Source: Terriglobia bacterium
GTDB lineage: Bacteria > Acidobacteriota > Terriglobia > 20CM-2-55-15
Direction of reading: 5' to 3'
Assembly: GCA_036496425.1 (NCBI GenBank)
Contig: DASXLG010000248.1
Location: 1 to 64,000, forward strand
DNA length: 64,000 bases
The position numbers were made by a program, and so were the translations under genes. Below are positions 9,379 to 30,794 of the stretch, piece after piece. Positions within the stretch are counted from its first letter, which is position 1. Every line of letters begins with the position of its first letter. Below the pieces are notes generated by a model. The model was given only the letters and a program-made list of their open reading frames with translations. It was not told the origin of the DNA and searched no databases.

Positions 9379-11405
9379 TGTCCGGCAACTCCAAGAGAGA
9401 CAATCTGAATATTCGGCGGAATGTCGTTCGGCGAAATCACCGAGAGCTGCGGCATGAACCGCTCGATCAGCTTCCGCATGTGGAATCGCAGTCCGCTGGA
9501 GCACAACAAGGTCCATTGCGACGACATCGTTTTCTGGCAGGCCTCGGTCAGGATTCTCACCAGCTGTTCGAACGTGTTGGCATCCACGGCCAGGTACGTC
9601 CCGGCATCATTGCGGATGACCGCCTTGTTCAACCGTTCTTCCCAGTGCGGCGCCAGCGTAATCACGGGCAGTTCGCCGCTGTCGTTCGCAAGTCCTTTGG
9701 TGATCGACCGGTTCAGCGCGCCGCGGGTGACTTCCGTGAGCGTGACGTGATCCTTGGTCTGGGTTCCGTAATCCGCAAGCGTCTCGAAAATCGTGACCAG
9801 GTCGCGAACCGAGACTTTCTCGCGCAGCAGGTTCTGCAGCACTTTCTGGATCTCGCCGATGGAGAGGGTCTTCGGTACAAGTTCTTCAATCAGCTTGGGA
9901 TGCGTTTCCGCGACATAGTCGATGAGGGCTTTCACTTCCTGGCGGCCGAGCAGCTCGAAGGCATGGCCGCGGATCGTTTCCGTCAGGTGGGTGGCCAGCA
10001 CCGTCGCCGGATCGACCACCGTGTAATTCATCAGCTGTGCGCGATCGCGGTTTTCCCTGGTGATCCACACCGCCGGCAATCCGAATGTCGGCTCGTTGGT
10101 CGGTGTTCCGTCGATCCTGTCCGTAACGTTGCCTGGATCGATGGCCAGAAACTTGTCTGCGGCCAGCTCGCCGCGGGCGATTTCGACGCCCTTCAGCAGA
10201 ATCGCATACTGGCGCGGACCGAGTTTCAGGTTGTCTGTAATATTGACGGGCGGCACGATCACGCCCATATCCTGCGCAATCTGCTTCCGGATCGAGCGGA
10301 TCCGGTTCAGGAAATCGCCGCCTTGCTGGACATCGACCAGGCCGATCAGGCCGTAGCCGATCTCGACCGCAAGACTGTCGATCTTGAGGAACGATGTCGT
10401 TTTTTCGGCCGCCGCGTCATCCTTGACCGGCGCATCCGTGGCCGGCTCGCTCGCGCGTTCCTTCGCGGCCTTCGCCAGCGTGAAAGCGATGAAGCCCAGG
10501 GTACCGGCGAGGAAAAAGAACGAGAACTTCGGAAAGCCCGGAATCAAACCCAGGCCCCCGACAATGCCGGCTCCGAAGAAAACCGGCTTCGGATTCGAAA
10601 ACAGCTGCATCGAAACGTTTTCGCCCATGCTGACGTCGGAGGCCGAACGCGTTGTTACCAGGCCGCCGGCGATCGAAATCAGGAGCGAAGGAATCGCGGT
10701 GACGAGGCCGTCACCGATCGTCAGAATCGTGAACGTGGTCAGGGCCGTCACCACCGGCATTCCGAACTGGAAAACCCCGATGAACAAACCGCCGATAATA
10801 TTGATCAGCGTGATGAGAATCGAAGCCATCGCATCACGCTGCGTGAATCGGATGGCGCCATCCATGGCGCCGTAGAATTCGGCTTCCTTGCCGATCTCCG
10901 CCCGTCTTTCCCGCGCTTCCTGCTGGTCGATGATCCCCGCATTCAGGTCCGCGTCGATCGCAAGCTGCTTGCCCGGCAACGCATCCAGCGTAAACCGTGC
11001 CGTCACTTCCGAAATACGGACCGCTCCATGGTTGATCACGACATACTGGATCACGATCAAAACCAGGAAAATGATGATGCCTACTGCATAATTCCCCCCG
11101 ACGACGAACTGTCCGAAAGCCCGGATCACATCCCCCGCAGCAGACATTCCCTGGCTGCCGTTGAGAAGAATGAGCCGCGACGACGCGATATTCAGCGAAA
11201 GCCGGAGCAGTGTCGTCATCAGAAGGATCGAAGGGAACGAAGAAAACTGAACGGGCTTGAGTAAATAGACCGCCGACAAAAGAATGACTACAGATAGCGT
11301 GATATTTGCCGATATCAGTATATCGAGAACGATCGTCGGCAGCGGGATGAGCACCGCGATCAGGATAATGATGATTGCAATCGGCATTGCGATCTGAGAC
11401 TTCAT
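9375..11405 (-). CDS. flhA: Flagellar biosynthesis protein FlhA
   Basis: A 676-residue export-gate protein: about eight N-terminal membrane helices, the conserved FHIPEP-type loop region (LRLSLNIASSRLILLNG; ARFTLDALPGKQLAIDADLN), and a C-terminal cytoplasmic domain that binds export chaperones. I choose the ATG at 11405, directly before the first membrane helix; the frame stays open upstream to 11603 but that stretch has no family similarity. A perfect sigma-54-type promoter ends only about 15 bases upstream, so the leader would be very short. In most genomes flhB precedes flhA; here it is 42 kb away. Confidence 0.96.
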   Translation of the reverse strand: MKSQIAMPIAIIIILIAVLIPLPTIVLDILISANITLSVVILLSAVYLLKPVQFSSFPSILLMTTLLRLSLNIASSRLILLNGSQGMSAAGDVIRAFGQFVVGGNYAVGIIIFLVLIVIQYVVINHGAVRISEVTARFTLDALPGKQLAIDADLNAGIIDQQEARERRAEIGKEAEFYGAMDGAIRFTQRDAMASILITLINIIGGLFIGVFQFGMPVVTALTTFTILTIGDGLVTAIPSLLISIAGGLVTTRSASDVSMGENVSMQLFSNPKPVFFGAGIVGGLGLIPGFPKFSFFFLAGTLGFIAFTLAKAAKERASEPATDAPVKDDAAAEKTTSFLKIDSLAVEIGYGLIGLVDVQQGGDFLNRIRSIRKQIAQDMGVIVPPVNITDNLKLGPRQYAILLKGVEIARGELAADKFLAIDPGNVTDRIDGTPTNEPTFGLPAVWITRENRDRAQLMNYTVVDPATVLATHLTETIRGHAFELLGRQEVKALIDYVAETHPKLIEELVPKTLSIGEIQKVLQNLLREKVSVRDLVTIFETLADYGTQTKDHVTLTEVTRGALNRSITKGLANDSGELPVITLAPHWEERLNKAVIRNDAGTYLAVDANTFEQLVRILTEACQKTMSSQWTLLCSSGLRFHMRKLIERFMPQLSVISPNDIPPNIQIVSLGVAGQ

Positions 11406-11419
11406 GACGGCCTCGATAA

Positions 11420-11435
11420 AGCAAGCGCGGTGCCA
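11420..11435 (-). promoter_or_regulatory. Sigma-54-type promoter in front of flhA
   Basis: Minus strand TGGCACCGCGCTTGCT, with GG and GC separated by exactly 10 bases; it fits the consensus TGGCAC-N5-TTGCW throughout. The expected start point is about base 11410, five bases from the chosen flhA ATG. The rest of the 11406-11682 gap shows nothing else. Confidence 0.75.
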
Positions 11436-11682
11436 ACCTGCAGAATTTGCCTGGCCCAGCTTCAGGCGGGCGCCATAAATACCGCAACTACAGTCAGATA
11501 GAGCAAATCTCGCTTCATTTCCCGAGCCCGGGAAAATACCGAACCCGCTCACGAAAGGCAGCTTTCCGACGGTCTCGCTGTCAGTATTGTGACGCACGCA
11601 CAAAGCAGATCTGCCTTTTGTGCCTTTTGAGGCTAAACTCCCCGTTCACTACCAGGAGAATGCGTCGGATTTGTGACAGCCG

Positions 11683-17684: not shown

Positions 17685-19928
17685 CTATCGCCAGCCCCTT
17701 GAGGCCAGGGCCACGAGATTGTCCACAGATAAGCGGCTGCCGGCACGGGCGTTCGCGCTGCGAACCTGATCCGGCGATATCCCCGAGTTGCGCATTCTCA
17801 CGAAATCGTCGATTTTGATGCCTGTGTAACCGAGACTTTGCATCTCCCGCACGTAATCCGGATCGACGCCGTGATTGCGAAGCTCGGTCAAGGTGTCGAG
17901 CGGCAGTTTTGCATATCCAAGTGCGCCGAGTTCGCGTGCGTAATCCGCATCGATGCCGTGGTTCCGAAGTTCGATCAGTCTGTCGAGAGTCAGGTTCGAG
18001 TATCCGGCGGAGGCAAGTTCCCGGCTGTATTCGGCGTCGACGCCATGATTGCGAAGCTGGATGAGTGTGTCGACGGGAAGCTTCGGATAGCCCTGCGCCG
18101 CAAGGTCACGTGCGTAGTCCGCATCCACGCCATGGTGACGGAGCTGGACCAGTTCATCCAGAGGCAGCTTCGCGTAACCCAAGCTTGCCAGGGCACGAAT
18201 GTATTCTCCATCGACGCCGGAATTCCGGGCGCGAAGGAGATCTTCAATAGAAAGCTTCGGCAGGCCTGCAGCCGCGAGATCGCGAATGAAATCGGGCGAG
18301 ACGCCGTGCCGCGACAGGTTGAGTAGATTGCCGAGTGTTCCGCCGTTATATCCCAACCGGCCCAGCTCGCGAAGATATGAAAGGCTGATGCCTTGGCGCG
18401 CGGCCTGAACAAGTTCGACGAGATGCGCCGGGCGAGCATAATGCTGAGCAACAAGCTCATCCAGGAAGGCGAAGCCGATATCCGTGCGTGCGAGCAGACG
18501 CTGCTCGACCAGGCCTGGCCGCTCGAAACCCCGCTTGGCGAGTTCGTCAGGAAACGTCGCGCTGGCTGCAAAGGTATATGTCCCGGCGCCAACGCCGTTT
18601 CGGATAACCCCCTCGACGGCAAATGTCCCGGCGTCGCGCCGCATATCGAAATGCACGGGACCTCCAACACCGGGGAATCCTGCCGGAAGCTCCGGCGTGT
18701 GGTCGAGGTCGATGGTGGTTGAATAAGAACTGCCGCCTTCTCTCAGTTGGAGATGCAGGATTCGCGCCTGACCTGTGGGACGAACTTCCCATACACCAAC
18801 GGCGTCCGCGGATTCCGGCGATACGGCTTGCACAAGGCCGGCTACCGCGAGCCCGAAGGTTGAACGCCCCGGCAACTTGACGGGCGAGCCTGGCGCCGCA
18901 GGCTGCCGGGCGGCTGTTGTCGCTGCGGCAATCGGGATCAGTAATGCAAATAGGATTCCGAGGGCCAGAAGATGACTGCGCAGCGCAGGCAGTGTACGGT
19001 TGCGAGCGCCGTCGAGCACTGCCAGCAGGCGCTTTTCAAGCTGCCCCGAACCCGCCATGCTCACGACAAGCGCGGTTTGCCGGCCGCTCTGGAGCGAATA
19101 AGCGATGTCCAGCAGATGGCCGGCATACTTGCGCGGTTCATCGGTTCCAAGAGAAAGCACACGATCATCACTTGCCAGCTCGCGCTCGACCCGGAGACGG
19201 CGTGCAATCCACCAGGCACCCGGATGGACCCAATAAACCGAACACACCACGGCCGCCAGAACCTGAGTCAAACAATCATTCCGCACCACATGCGCTATCT
19301 CGTGGAGTAGTACGGCCCTGCGGCGATCCTCTGACCAGGTATCCGCGATCGCCGGAATCACGATCGCACCGCCCAGAATTCCGAATGCAGCCGGCATGAT
19401 CTGCTCGTGGCTGCGCCATAGTTTGATCCTTCGCCCGGCGCGCATTCGTTGACAACACTCCAGCAGCAGGCGCTCCCATTCCGGATCATGGACTTCGCCT
19501 GCGCCACGCATCAGCCGCCCTGCCGAAAAGAATTCGGCAATCAGACGAAGCAGCAGAACAAATGCCACGCTTGCGTAAACAAGTTCGAAAGCGCGGAACC
19601 AGGGGAAGCCTGCCGGATTCGCCTGCAACGAGCGTTGCTCCATTGAAATGTTCAACGGCTCTGCGATCTGGACAGAATCGAACGGGGAATGTGGTTGGCC
19701 CGCAACGATGCCCGGAGATTCGATAAGGTTTTCGGGCGCCGTCGTCACGATGGTCCAGGGCGGCAGCACAAATGAAAACACAGGAACCAGCAGGAACCCG
19801 GCGGCGGCCAGTGTCCAGACCAGATGACGCGTCGCCGCGGACATCCGGCGGCCCCACAATGCCTGAAGCAGCCCGGCGGCAAGAAAAAGAATCGAGGCCT
19901 TAAGAAGGATGGAAATCGGTGTCATCAT
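17685..19928 (-). CDS. BlaR1/MecR1-type M56 metallopeptidase sensor with C-terminal 29-residue repeats
   Basis: A 747-residue membrane protein. The N-terminal part has helices near residues 5-22, 35-52 and 112-132 and the zinc motif HEIAH at 209-213 with a downstream ERELASDD that can supply the third ligand, as in M56 peptidases that cleave BlaI-type repressors. A further membrane helix lies around 320-340. The second half has a beta-rich stretch, then at least eight repeats of 29 residues (consensus YxRELxxxGYxKLxxDxLxxLRNHGVDxD). There is no penicillin-binding domain, so the signal sensed is not obviously a beta-lactam. It overlaps blaI by 4 bases. Confidence 0.88.
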   Translation of the reverse strand: MMTPISILLKASILFLAAGLLQALWGRRMSAATRHLVWTLAAAGFLLVPVFSFVLPPWTIVTTAPENLIESPGIVAGQPHSPFDSVQIAEPLNISMEQRSLQANPAGFPWFRAFELVYASVAFVLLLRLIAEFFSAGRLMRGAGEVHDPEWERLLLECCQRMRAGRRIKLWRSHEQIMPAAFGILGGAIVIPAIADTWSEDRRRAVLLHEIAHVVRNDCLTQVLAAVVCSVYWVHPGAWWIARRLRVERELASDDRVLSLGTDEPRKYAGHLLDIAYSLQSGRQTALVVSMAGSGQLEKRLLAVLDGARNRTLPALRSHLLALGILFALLIPIAAATTAARQPAAPGSPVKLPGRSTFGLAVAGLVQAVSPESADAVGVWEVRPTGQARILHLQLREGGSSYSTTIDLDHTPELPAGFPGVGGPVHFDMRRDAGTFAVEGVIRNGVGAGTYTFAASATFPDELAKRGFERPGLVEQRLLARTDIGFAFLDELVAQHYARPAHLVELVQAARQGISLSYLRELGRLGYNGGTLGNLLNLSRHGVSPDFIRDLAAAGLPKLSIEDLLRARNSGVDGEYIRALASLGYAKLPLDELVQLRHHGVDADYARDLAAQGYPKLPVDTLIQLRNHGVDAEYSRELASAGYSNLTLDRLIELRNHGIDADYARELGALGYAKLPLDTLTELRNHGVDPDYVREMQSLGYTGIKIDDFVRMRNSGISPDQVRSANARAGSRLSVDNLVALASRGWR
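17688..18377 (-). repeat. 87-bp in-frame tandem repeats in the BlaR1-like gene
   Basis: Seven full units of 29 codons plus one of 27, at the 3' end of the gene; a weaker ninth unit precedes them. Conserved positions are Y1, L5, G9, L13, D16, L18, L21, R22, H24/S24, G25 and D27. The pattern suggests a helical solenoid for protein or ligand binding. Confidence 0.85.
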
Positions 19929-25860: not shown

Positions 25861-27726
25861 CTATCGTTCCTTATTTTCGTCCTTGAGAAGGCGGTAAATA
25901 TAACGTTCGCTGTACCCCATGCGCCTGGCGGTCTCCGCAATACTGCCGGTTTCAGCGTAAATCCTCGCGGCCTCGGCCCTCAGTATCTCGTGCGCGATCT
26001 TGCGGGCGTCCATTTGAACGGCACCTTGTGCAGGCGCTGCGCCTGCTGCTGCCGCAGCCGCACGCCGGGGCTCGGTCAGCGCGGCCGGCAGATCCTTCAG
26101 CCGGATGACGTCGGAACGGCCGGCTTTCGCAAATGCAATCCCGGAGCGGACCAGGCCGCGAAGGTCGCGGATGTTGCCCGGCCAATCGTAGGCCAGCATG
26201 GCTTTCAGCGCATCCGTCGCAACTCCGGTAACGCCCAGGCCGGTCCCGAAGCGGCCCAGAAAATAATTGATGAGCAGCGGGATATCTTCGCGGCGGTCGC
26301 GCAAGGGCGGGACGACGATGGTGATGTCCTTCAGACGCTGGTAGAGATCCTTACGAAACTTGTGCTCCCGAACCGCCTGTTCCAGATCGACATTCGTGGA
26401 TGCGATCACACGGACGTCGACTTTGACGGTGCGTTGGGCTCCGACCGGCTCGAACTCGTACTCCTGCAGGGCGCGGAGCAGTTTGGGCTGCATCTCCAGC
26501 TTCAGCTCGCCGATTTCGTCCAGCAGAAGCGTCCCGCCGTCGGCCTGCTTGAACTTGCCGTCGCGGGATTCGGTCGCGCCGGTGAAGGAGCCTTTGACGT
26601 GCCCGAACAACTCGCTTTCGAACAGCGTTTCGGTCACGGCCGGGCAGTTGACGGCGACAAGGGGTTGATCGGCGCGGCTGCTCCTCGCATGAATACGGCG
26701 GGCGACCAACTCCTTGCCGGTCCCGGTTTCCCCGTGAATCAGAACAGGGATGTCCATACCCGCGGCCACCTCGATGTGTTCGAAAACGGTTTGAATGGCT
26801 TCGCTCTCTCCAATGAGCTCATCGGCGAACCGGTGCTCGGCTTTCAGCACGTCCCTTTCATGACGGATCGATTCAACCTGCCGCGACTCGCGCAGCCCGG
26901 CTACCACGGTTTCCGCCAGGTCCTCCGCCCATTGCAGGTGTTCCGGCTCGAAAGCGCGCGCGCCGCGCACTCCTTCCAGATAGAGGACGCCTTTGATCTG
27001 TCCGCTGGACAGCAAAGGAACACAAATGGTGGGGGGAACGATCGTCCCGGGCATGCGAGGTTCGCGCTTCGCATACACCTCCGCCACGAGCCGGGTGTTG
27101 TAAGGAAACGGCGTATCGAGGCCCGAATCGGCCTCGCGATAAACCTGAAGAACGAAATCGGCAGGCTCGGGACCGATGCGCCTGCCGTTGATCAGGATCG
27201 CTCCGCGCCTCGCAGGAATGATGTCCAAAATCAAATCCAGCAGGCCCGCCAGCAGCTTGCCCGGATCTTGAATCGCGGTCAGGCAGCGGCCCGTCTTTAA
27301 AGAGGCCCCGAGCCCGCCGCGGTAATAGGCCTGGGTGTCCTCGATCGAGGAGTAGTCTACGCGCAATGTTTCCAGCTCTTGGTTTTTCGCAATCTCGCCG
27401 GCGCTCACGGTGAGAAATTTCTGCGGCACCTTGTCTTGAATCAGGCAGACAAAGATCGTGCTGCCGCACTGGATCCGGCTGCCCTCCTTGAGGTCGTCCC
27501 CGCGGAGACGCACTTCACCGTCGACCCGCACTCCGTTCCGCGTGCCGAGATGGCGGAACCAGAGCTTGCCGGCCTCCCGCCAGAACGAAAAATGCTGCCG
27601 GGAGGCCAGCTCATCGTTGAGAACGATATCGTTGCCGGCGGCTCTGCCGACGGTGGTTTCTTCGTCCTTGAATGGAAACTCGGAATCCTTCAGTGGTCCT
27701 GAAAGCGCTCTAAGTCTGTCGTTCAT
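25861..27726 (-). CDS. Sigma-54-dependent activator with FHA, GAF-like, AAA+ and Fis-type HTH domains
   Basis: A 621-residue enhancer-binding protein. Residues 1-95 form an FHA domain (TVGRAAGNDIVLND, ASRQHFSF, GTRNGVRVDG), which reads phosphothreonine. Residues about 140-300 look like a GAF domain (RRGAILINGRRI, LLSSGQIKGVLYLEG). The AAA+ domain has GETGTGKELVARRIH (Walker A), GSFTGATES (the sigma-54 contact loop, GAFTGA type), GGTLLLDEIGEL (Walker B) and NVDLEQAVREHKFRKDLYQR. The C-terminal helix-turn-helix is SIAETARRMGYSERYIYRLL. FHA input implies control by a Ser/Thr kinase. Its likely targets are the two flanking sigma-54 promoters. Confidence 0.92.
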   Translation of the reverse strand: MNDRLRALSGPLKDSEFPFKDEETTVGRAAGNDIVLNDELASRQHFSFWREAGKLWFRHLGTRNGVRVDGEVRLRGDDLKEGSRIQCGSTIFVCLIQDKVPQKFLTVSAGEIAKNQELETLRVDYSSIEDTQAYYRGGLGASLKTGRCLTAIQDPGKLLAGLLDLILDIIPARRGAILINGRRIGPEPADFVLQVYREADSGLDTPFPYNTRLVAEVYAKREPRMPGTIVPPTICVPLLSSGQIKGVLYLEGVRGARAFEPEHLQWAEDLAETVVAGLRESRQVESIRHERDVLKAEHRFADELIGESEAIQTVFEHIEVAAGMDIPVLIHGETGTGKELVARRIHARSSRADQPLVAVNCPAVTETLFESELFGHVKGSFTGATESRDGKFKQADGGTLLLDEIGELKLEMQPKLLRALQEYEFEPVGAQRTVKVDVRVIASTNVDLEQAVREHKFRKDLYQRLKDITIVVPPLRDRREDIPLLINYFLGRFGTGLGVTGVATDALKAMLAYDWPGNIRDLRGLVRSGIAFAKAGRSDVIRLKDLPAALTEPRRAAAAAAGAAPAQGAVQMDARKIAHEILRAEAARIYAETGSIAETARRMGYSERYIYRLLKDENKER

Positions 27727-27850: not shown

Positions 27851-28495
27851 CTACGTCGACATCATTGTCACGGAGTCGCTCCAATCGGTAGATCCGAGAG
27901 GGCCCAACGCCCGGACCTGAAACGCATAGACGGTGCCGGGAGTGAGGTTGCCGATCAGCATTCCCTTTTTCACCGTGGTCATCGTTTCCGTCGTCCATGG
28001 ACCGGGATTGCCGTTGGCCATCGCGGCGTATCGCAGGTCGTAACTCGCCGCGTTCCGGATCGCAGCGACCCGGACCAACAGCTGTCCGCTGTTGGCGCCG
28101 TGCACGATCTTCTTCACGACCGGCGGAGTCAGCGGCGCCGCCGACGATTTTGTCGTCGTGGCGGGCTGGAAACCGCTCGTCGTAAAGATAGCGAGATCGT
28201 CGCCGCAATTCGCTTCGACATAGACCGCGAGTTGCCTCATCATTTTGATCAAGGTCTCACGGTCGCCGTCTTTTGCGGCGATGGCTTTCTTGCTTCCATC
28301 CAACGCCGCCGCGATTGCGGCCGCAAACGTGTCGATCATTGTCTTGAACGTTGCCAGATCCACAGCAGGGTTCAGGAACTTTGCATTTCCCGTCAGTCCC
28401 GCCAGCACCGCCGTGGCGCGGGCCAGGACACTGGCGTCGCTCATGGTCCTGAAACCCAGCATCGGTCGTATCGGGTTGATCTTATTTGTCGTCAT
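27851..28495 (-). CDS. Fibronectin type III domain protein, 214 aa
   Basis: N-terminal part helical (ATAVLAGLTGNAKFLNPAVD ... RETLIKMMRQLAVYVEANCG), C-terminal FN3 domain from about residue 122 (LLVRVAAIRNAASYDLRYAA ... LTPGTVYAFQVRALGPLGST). No signal peptide is visible. Ribosome-binding site AAAGGA lies 8 bases before the ATG. It has its own sigma-54-type promoter with twin activator sites and a strong terminator, so it is a one-gene unit. Related proteins of this layout are known from other environmental bacteria, without a function. Confidence 0.75.
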   Translation of the reverse strand: MTTNKINPIRPMLGFRTMSDASVLARATAVLAGLTGNAKFLNPAVDLATFKTMIDTFAAAIAAALDGSKKAIAAKDGDRETLIKMMRQLAVYVEANCGDDLAIFTTSGFQPATTTKSSAAPLTPPVVKKIVHGANSGQLLVRVAAIRNAASYDLRYAAMANGNPGPWTTETMTTVKKGMLIGNLTPGTVYAFQVRALGPLGSTDWSDSVTMMST

Positions 28496-28600: not shown

Positions 28601-28616
28601 CGCAATCCCGCAGCCA
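28601..28616 (-). promoter_or_regulatory. Sigma-54-type promoter of the FN3 gene
   Basis: Minus strand TGGCTGCGGGATTGCG: TGGC and TTGC with GG-GC spacing of exactly 10. The -24 GG pairs at 28614-28615, 83 bases from the nearest palindrome centre, nearly the same as at the other operon (82). Confidence 0.7.
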
Positions 28617-28672
28617 AAGCCGCCAGGAAATACCAAGCGTGATTTATCAACGAGTTAGCTTTTGAGAGGGGA

Positions 28673-28728
28673 TGAACTGCGGCCGGATTTTGAACTGCCA
28701 GTTCAATTTTTGAACTGCCAGTTCAAAA
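28673..28728. promoter_or_regulatory. Twin palindromic activator sites (set 2) plus a half-site
   Basis: TTGAACTGCCAGTTCAA at 28690-28706 (centre 28698) and TTTTGAAC/GTTCAAAA around TGCCA at 28708-28728 (centre 28718), 20 bp apart. A half-site TGAACTGC is at 28673-28680. Same motif as at 25813-25854. Confidence 0.78.
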
Positions 28729-28753
28729 TCAGCACGATGGAAACCAAATCCGA

Positions 28754-29440
28754 ATCTTTAAACACAACATTTAAAGATGAACCAGAACACGCGATCTTTG
28801 TCGCCACAATTTAAAGATGGGATTAATGATCGACATCTTTAATCGCATGTTTTAAAAATGCGACCAGAAATGCCAATCATTAACCCCATGTTTAAAACAT
28901 GAAGTCAAACTCGCAATCTTTAATCGAGTCCTTCGAAGATCGGATTAAAGATCTCGATCTTTGAGCCCAAAAGTCAAAAATGGCGTTAAAGATGGATATC
29001 TTTAAACCGATCCCGAAAAGATGTGATCCAAGATGGCCAACATTAACCCGATCTTGAAAAAATAGATTTAAAGATGCGGATCATCAATTCAATCCTCGAG
29101 ACACCGGGTTAAAGATCGAGAACTCTGGATCCATGTTTTGGAAATGGCGCTAATGATCGCGATCTTTACTACTTCCCTGAAGAATGCGCTTAAAGATCTG
29201 TATCTTTATTCCCATTTTCAAAACATGAATTTAATGTTCTGGGGCTTCAAACCCGAAATTTAAACATCAATCCAAAGATGTAAAGATTCGATCCATGGTC
29301 GGCAAGATTAAGCCAATGTTTTAAAAACGCATTTCAAGATTCCGATTTTGGGATGCATCTTAAAATCATTAATCCCATCTTCAAATCATTCTTTCTGTTT
29401 TTCGATGTTTTGTTTAAAGATGCCGAACATCAGAATGTTG
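28754..29440. repeat. Array of about 17 degenerate 41-bp palindromic repeats, AT-rich
   Basis: Unit starts read at 28754, 28794, 28835, 28876, 28916, 28957, 28998, 29039, 29080, 29121, 29162, 29202, 29243, 29284, then about 29325, 29365 and 29405: steps of 40 or 41. The approximate consensus begins ATCTTTAANCCCATNTTT, has NAAAGATGNGATTAAAGAT after it, and a 3-4 base spacer. It is self-complementary (ATCTTTAA at one end, TTAAAGAT at the other), so each unit is a dyad. Units differ at many positions. The period is not a multiple of three and no open frame runs through, so it is not coding. Confidence 0.85.
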
Positions 29441-29651
29441 TCCTCGCCTTTCGGACGGAAGCAACCGAACCATTCTGGACCTGCTCAAGGGTTCCCGCTT
29501 TTAAGAATTCCGGAAAGTGACATCTTCCCGATACTTTAGGTTTTGTGAATTCGGAAAATAGTGACGGCGCAAATTGCCGCTTCGCACCACATGACTTGCA
29601 AAAATGTGAGGCACCGCTGACTTGATTACCGCAGTTTTCACAAAAGGGCAT
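29430..29651 (-). pseudogene. Zinc-ribbon protein, probably truncated
   Basis: Starts MPFCENCGNQVSGASHFCKS followed by CGA: a clear zinc ribbon with two C-x-x-C knuckles, usual at the N terminus of longer membrane proteins. The remaining 48 residues are not recognisable and the frame stops at the edge of the 41-bp repeat array, so the rest of the gene has probably been lost or replaced by the array. It could also be a short intact protein. Confidence 0.5.
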
Positions 29652-29987: not shown

Positions 29988-30794
29988 ATGGAAAGTAAGG
30001 TCGAACAGCTAAAGGCGCTAATTGTCGAGGGCGAGAAATTCAGCTTCGCCAATTTTTCAATCCGGACGGACTCTAAATACGGAGGAGAGGATACTCCAGC
30101 ATGGCTAACATGGAAGACCCGCGTGCGATTCGTATTGAACGGACTGGTAAGCGAACAGTCAGCGCCAATGGCATTGTGCGCTAAAGCGCAGGGTATTTTA
30201 ACAGCCGGAAATCTCGCAGATAGCTTCGACGCCCAAAAAGGTATGCTTCTTGCGGCACTAAAAGAAACGCTGACAGTAGTTGAAGGTGACCCGTACGGCG
30301 AAGCGGCGCAACAAAAAGCTGTGCCGAAATCTGCGGTAATTTCCAACCATGTTTTCATTGTGCATGGACACGATCACGCGTTGAAGACGGATTTAGAGGT
30401 ATTCCTCAAGGGCATCGGGCTAGAACCTATTGTGTTGCACCGTCAGCCGGATGAAGGGAAGACGATAATCGAGAAGTTCGAGAAGCATGCTGACGTGGGT
30501 TACGCATTTGTTCTCCTCACTCCTGACGAACTGGCTTACACGGTAGACCAGGAAAAGCTGCCTGAGGATCAACGCAAGAAGGAGTATCGTGCCCGCCCGA
30601 ATGTGATATGGGAATTCGGCTTTTTCAGCGGCCGGCTAGGGCGTAGTCGGGTTTGTTGCCTGCTCAAAGGAACCGTCACAAAACCCAGTGACATTGATGG
30701 CCTTGTGTACAAAGATGCTTCCGGCGGTGTGGAAAGTATTGCGTACGCCATCATCAAGGAGCTTAAAGCGGCGGGATACATAATCAAGATCTGA
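29988..30794 (+). CDS. TIR-like nucleotide-binding protein (CAP12/PF10137 type)
   Basis: A 268-residue protein. The N-terminal about 115 residues form a helical domain. The C-terminal part has HVFIVHGHDHALKTDLEVFL, PIVLHRQPDEGKTIIEKFE, AFVLLTPDELAY and RPNVIWEFGFFSGRLGR, the marks of the TIR-like family PF10137. Members act as NAD-degrading effectors in antiphage systems such as CBASS or Pycsar. The glutamate in IWEFGF is the expected catalytic residue. No nucleotide cyclase gene is adjacent, so the trigger is unknown; the next genes are unrecognised. Confidence 0.8.
   Translation: MESKVEQLKALIVEGEKFSFANFSIRTDSKYGGEDTPAWLTWKTRVRFVLNGLVSEQSAPMALCAKAQGILTAGNLADSFDAQKGMLLAALKETLTVVEGDPYGEAAQQKAVPKSAVISNHVFIVHGHDHALKTDLEVFLKGIGLEPIVLHRQPDEGKTIIEKFEKHADVGYAFVLLTPDELAYTVDQEKLPEDQRKKEYRARPNVIWEFGFFSGRLGRSRVCCLLKGTVTKPSDIDGLVYKDASGGVESIAYAIIKELKAAGYIIKI

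Follow-up and report, generated by a model that had tools for sequence, protein, structure and literature searches.

Upstream of a gene for a fibronectin type III (FN3) family protein, the window (the whole stretch of 64,000 nucleotides that was analysed) carries a tandem array of diverged palindromic units. Arrays of the same phased and symmetrical design are found strictly upstream of members of this gene family in two phyla, and the gene in the window is in addition preceded by recognizable promoter motifs. These observations suggest an undescribed kind of gene-control DNA in this soil bacterium and its relatives; no published description of such arrays was found in the open-access literature, which leaves out most subscription papers. 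A large, unstudied bacterial gene family is hereby linked to a repeated DNA architecture that spans two phyla and changes its sequence from locus to locus. The tie to a gene family and the recurrence in another phylum go beyond the first-pass annotation of this DNA, the overall reading of which is partly supported.

Table 1. Features of the window around the palindrome array.
Feature	Position	Strand	Basis
FHA-GAF-AAA+(sigma54)-HTH activator (bEBP), downstream of FN3	25861..27726	-	Pfam, NCBIfam, cluster 5
FN3-family gene, 214 aa: N-terminal helices and C-terminal fibronectin type III fold	27851..28495	-	sequence and fold searches, predicted structure
sigma54-type -24/-12 promoter of the FN3 gene, TGGCTGCGGGATTGCG	28601..28616	-	motif; combined IHF + sigma54 match
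homology to second copy (78-79% identity; flanks unrelated)	28641..29453		comparison with G000:C288:45901-46638(-)
IHF-like site TAACTCGTTGATA, matching YAANNNNYTGATW with 0 mismatches and lying 41 bp upstream of the -24 box	28645..28657	-	motif
proximal UAS: dyad TTGAACTGGCAGTTCAA in two identical copies spaced 20 bp apart, at -231..-193 relative to the FN3 start	28688..28726	-	TRF, dimer scan
distal array: diverged palindromic units, 16 of 40-41 bp and one half-unit of 20 bp	28754..29425		autocorrelation, cyclic HMM, dyad axis, covariance-model matches

Structure of the distal array

Autocorrelation of positions 28754-29440, the check that had been proposed for a 41-bp periodicity, bears this periodicity out: the highest peak is at lag 41 with an identity of 0.48, versus 0.27 +/- 0.02 (maximum 0.32) at this lag and at most 0.35 at any lag in 500 dinucleotide shuffles. 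Secondary peaks are found at lags 163, 122, 82 and 81. A cyclic 41-state HMM with the unit consensus ATCTTTAANCCCATNTTTNAAAANATGGGNTTAAAGATCGC places twelve units (starting at 28754, 28794, 28835, 28876, 28916, 28957, 28998, 29039, 29080, 29121, 29162 and 29202), the half-unit (29243-29262), and four further units (starting at 29263, 29304, 29345 and 29385), so that the count of about 17 repeats given by the first-pass annotation was right. Its strict phase holds for the 40-41 bp spacing but is broken by the half-unit shift after the twelfth unit, and the return of phase that it saw at 29365 and 29405 is a real register, but that of the other dyad, since in a periodic palindrome such as this array a second dyad lies half a period away from the first.

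The units are indeed self-complementary. The dyad axis is sharp (j+j'=38), with 157 of the 284 arm cells (55%) Watson-Crick complementary, compared to 59-96 (about 21-32%) at other axes, and dyad axes occur about every 20.5 bp, giving about 33 axes in the distal array. Each unit displays three A/T peaks, with a period of 13.7 bp (power 17), while the power at 10.2 bp is only 4.7; the array is therefore not phased A-tract DNA, and A-tract bending or curvature was rejected as its basis.

Promoter anatomy and gene neighbourhood

Proceeding outward from the FN3 gene, the -24/-12 element is followed by the IHF-like site, the two UAS dyads and the array, which at motif level supports the earlier statement that the array adjoins activator sites of this gene. 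The promoter sequence TGGCTGCGGGATTGCG agrees, as a motif, with the -24/-12 element (TGGC-N7-TTGC). Nearly every sigma54-class FN3 locus has the start of its IHF-like site 40-42 bp upstream of the -24 box, and a motif with at most one mismatch is present in 12 of 15 of these loci versus 1.5 expected. The combined sigma54 and IHF signature was found at 13 of 52 FN3 loci, compared to 6 chance matches in 0.79 Mb of control strand sequence, and all six loci adjoining an FHA-bEBP gene are among the 12 best sigma54 promoters. A putative cognate AAA+ activator is likewise present, as an FHA-GAF-Sigma54_activat gene adjoins the FN3 gene; its product is a candidate ligand of the proximal UAS. Judged by motifs, the proximal FN3 promoter shows the tested features of a sigma54 promoter.

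The distal array, when tested as a sigma54 enhancer, did not share the motif of the UAS. The UAS dyads have the same spacing as the array dyads (20-23 bp), but their sequence is unlike that of the array at the same locus, and two loci (L042 and L052) have the same UAS and different arrays. Arrays are also present at loci without a sigma54 motif, and are therefore not simply the site of the bEBP.

Two other features of the window were noted: a TIR-domain gene of the candidate defence family CAP12/PDC-S35 on the far side of the array (29988-30794, + strand), and an 87-bp tandem repeat, a multiple of 3, at 17852-18073 inside a 747-aa open frame (17685-19928, - strand).

The FN3 family and its arrays in Acidobacteriota

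The structure of the 214-aa protein was predicted with a pLDDT of 93.6, and fold searches with it returned generic FN3 domains only, matching no known DNA-binding fold. The family has about 50 members in this genome and 28 in one congener, with smaller numbers in another three, and its proteins are basic (mean pI 9.3; pI above 8 in 46 of 48). From these five related genomes 52 FN3 loci, picked by match quality, were examined; they are not all independent, because they include orthologues and recent duplicates. An array was called at a best-lag identity of at least 0.49 and a self-reverse-complement score of 4.2 or higher (roughly the 95% point of the controls), the latter score being approximate and calibrated by the controls. 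An upstream array was thus detected at 29 of the 52 loci, and none at the other 23, compared with a single array in 180 control stretches of 2 kb. Within 1 kb of the FN3 gene, arrays were located upstream at 24 of 48 loci and downstream at 0 of 50. In operons that begin with an ECF sigma gene (L051, L068, L092), the array is located upstream of this first gene.

The best lags of the 29 arrays (20, 40, 41, 42, 80, 82, 83, 105, 123 and 124) are all multiples of 20-21 bp, and every FN3-linked acidobacterial array is self-complementary. In young arrays, with 90-98% identity between units, the dyad match is only about 60-65%, as in protein sites. The search of related genomes for arrays of the same symmetry, as had been proposed earlier, thus yielded arrays at FN3-family loci, but with unit sequences that are mostly unrelated; only close paralogues or orthologues (L044/L053/L057, L050/L083) have theirs in common. 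BLAST and covariance-model searches of the relatives retrieved just two copies of the window array, both in this genome, because the arrays at other loci differ in sequence; those arrays were found by autocorrelation, locus by locus.

Several FN3 loci have further features. At L063, L071, L074 and L078 (G000) the FN3-family gene adjoins a cluster 8 gene, and no array is detectable at any of the four; the L063 gene, the one cluster 8 gene searched, encodes a T7-like single-subunit RNA polymerase (PF00940, E 2.9e-94). A leader hairpin whose loop is conserved (CCGG[CT][CT]GC) and whose stems vary, with double-sided changes in 10 of 12 consensus pairs, is found at -60..-170 upstream of FN3 in L051, L056, L064, L065, L074, L085, L087, L091 and L092, and is possibly a new cis-regulatory RNA. 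Downstream of FN3 in L048, L051, L089 and L090 are genes for proteins of 77-83 aa with a holin-like look (a heptad region and a membrane segment), followed by conserved membrane proteins; those tested gave no significant Pfam match.

Arrays in Verrucomicrobiaceae

Two Verrucomicrobiaceae genomes contain 10 and 6 FN3 homologues, respectively. Upstream arrays were found at 8 of the 13 testable ones, with periods of 21, 42 or 84 bp and once 44 bp; one of the eight (L126) is weakly self-complementary. The controls comprised 180 stretches and held two clear 21-bp palindromic arrays, one of which lies directly upstream of the gene for a protein (L164) that, in our reading of its sequence and not from a database match, looks helical with an FN3-like C-terminus. 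The FN3 family is almost absent elsewhere in the class to which the window belongs, which makes its horizontal spread likely. One-turn (10-11 bp) direct repeats AACCACTGCA / ACCGTCAACC were also noted near the Verrucomicrobiaceae homologues (L120/L127, 1025-1204; L121, 4925-5020 and 3289-3321).

Proposed role of the array

Among the three functions suggested by the first-pass annotation, a multi-protein binding array is the best supported, by the two-turn-multiple periods at 29 loci, the dyads, and the arms, which have a common consensus and vary independently, as is the case with half-sites for a dimer. We infer that protein binds the array and that the array regulates the operon, and consider the chances evenly balanced that it is a same-face row of dimeric-protein sites acting in cis on the FN3 operon. 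Heading the operon as a cis-acting DNA element, the array would be occupied by a dyad-recognising dimeric protein, one axis every two helix turns; the dimers would lie on one DNA face and act cooperatively on the operon promoter from about 0.15-0.9 kb upstream, so that the array would work as an upstream activating sequence or operator does, but with its sites multiplied many times over. The specificity of this protein probably differs from that of the proximal-UAS protein, because the window promoter has its own IHF-like site and a two-dyad UAS of other sequence. The main weakness of this reading is twofold: it calls for a multitude of different binders, the units of most loci being unrelated in sequence, and the L050/L083 arrays evolve about as fast as fourfold-degenerate sites. 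Weak sequence constraint, arrays without an FN3 gene, and FN3 loci without an array all argue against a binding array.

If the arrays are binding sites, they would, to our knowledge, far exceed in length all other enhancer- or operator-like arrays on bacterial chromosomes, and the dozens of unrelated arrays per genome would constitute a natural library of DNA-recognition pairs. It seems unlikely that they belong to a two-part system in which the helical-plus-FN3 protein, or a partner dedicated to it, recognises the private, helically phased palindrome array upstream of that protein's gene; such a system would extend over two or more phyla of bacteria and, in one genome, would have been amplified to dozens of pairs that all differ from one another.

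Dispersed copies, constraint and alternative explanations

The strongest rival, which we regard as doubtful, is that the repeats are expanding satellites or promoter-length repeats without a dedicated binder. Upstream of FN3 genes they would come into being, become homogenised and decay, and they would either be selfish DNA or, like contingency VNTRs, do no more than tune expression through their copy number. The range of unit identity across arrays, from 98% down to about 50%, is as expected from birth and decay. The orthologous arrays at L050 and L083 differ in copy number (4.2 versus 5.5 units of 80 bp) and diverge about like fourfold-degenerate sites (unit identity 85-91% versus 84-86%), and sequence constraint is therefore weak.

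Dispersed solo copies with sharp ends point in the same direction. The second copy of the window array, on C288 in the same genome, starts at the IHF-like site and comprises a degenerate UAS and the whole array without promoter and gene, there being no FN3 gene in the available flank. Two solo palindrome-array elements of about 600 bp (G000:C344, about 10939-11535, and C209:4252-4847) are 92% identical, have sharp ends and stand in unrelated contexts with no FN3 gene; another solo copy is located on C308. Some arrays have no adjoining FN3 gene, namely at the C288 end, on C209, C344, C308 and C159, and at the C250 start. That all arrays stem from the insertion of one mobile element was rejected, because the window/C288 and C344/C209 pairs have no ends in common.

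The comparison of the window with C288 suggests, but does not prove, constraint on the array sequence: positions conserved among units diverge less (rho -0.55, p 2e-4; with A/T columns only, rho -0.49, p 0.007), yet sites matching and not matching the consensus diverge at an equal rate. Slippage leaves the two-turn-multiple periods, the universal dyads, the strict upstream position and the recurrence in two phyla unexplained, and if no protein binds, it needs explaining how bacterial tandem repeats keep both the two-turn period and the dyads.

That each FN3-family protein binds its own array, for private autoregulation or DNA coating, is distinctly improbable. The FN3 gene is the partner of nearly all arrays, at sigma54 and ECF loci and in both phyla, the proteins are basic, array motifs are common to the close paralogues L044, L053 and L057 and not to distant ones, and the L164 gene, with a product read as helical and FN3-like, also has a 21-bp palindromic array; however, the protein matches no known DNA-binding fold, arrays without FN3 exist, and FN3 loci without arrays are common.

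Transcription of the array into a repeat RNA, whether this served as an antitoxin array, as in type III toxin-antitoxin systems, or formed a large structured RNA, is very unlikely. The layout, direct repeats upstream of a small basic protein gene, resembles type III systems, and the window strand has a better folding score than shuffled sequence (z -8.5), but strong folding scores arise because the array consists of repeated palindromes. Over 28 units from the window and C288 copies, arm pairing (63.0% versus 62.1% in shuffles) and arm covariation (0.143 versus 0.139) are at shuffle level; an RNA hairpin or cruciform is unlikely because the arm pairs do not covary, and no Rfam family matched the window at gathering score, both of which speak against the structured transcript proposed earlier. 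Nor would an RNA be expected to have half-integral units, as in the 61-62 and 20 bp periods, to keep to strict helical multiples, or to be encoded upstream of the predicted promoter, and the protein has the FN3 fold rather than that of ToxN. The partition site of the first-pass annotation, or a nucleoid-organising site or origin iterons, is hardly credible: tandem palindromic sites do resemble some centromeres and origins, but dozens of arrays of unrelated sequence exist per genome, most of them at an FN3 operon, and BLAST found no match to the array in plasmid and phage records.

Comparison with known systems

Some centromeres and origins have tandem palindromic sites, and iteron and centromere (parS/parC-type) arrays are, as the window array would be, tandem phased sites for DNA-binding proteins. 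The window array differs in being located off an origin or par locus (no rep or par genes were found by Pfam in six neighbouring proteins) and in being one of many unrelated arrays per genome, most of them with one gene family.

In type III toxin-antitoxin systems the gene for a small basic protein is preceded by direct repeats that measure roughly 34-48 nt, and ToxI/ToxN is comparable in its tandem repeats of about 40 bp in this position. The FN3 arrays are unlike it in the fold of the protein, in their position upstream of the promoter, in their helical periods and in being without RNA support; a ToxN-like toxin was not found, the protein having an FN3 fold and no PADLOC match. With REP/BIME palindromes the arrays share that they are extragenic palindromes of 20-41 bp, but they form no single dispersed sequence family, being private to their locus and placed upstream of a single gene family. 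Promoter VNTR contingency loci are likewise variable-copy tandem repeats upstream of multigene-family members; the FN3 arrays differ in their two-turn dyad units, which are often strongly diverged yet in phase.

The sigma54 UAS of the NtrC type, with an IHF bend, resembles the proximal UAS of the window, in which the dyads are about two turns apart and an IHF-like site lies between the UAS and the -24/-12 element. Known sigma54 enhancers have few sites each, whereas the distal array has about 33 dyad axes of another sequence, and such arrays are also found without a sigma54 motif and in Verrucomicrobiaceae.
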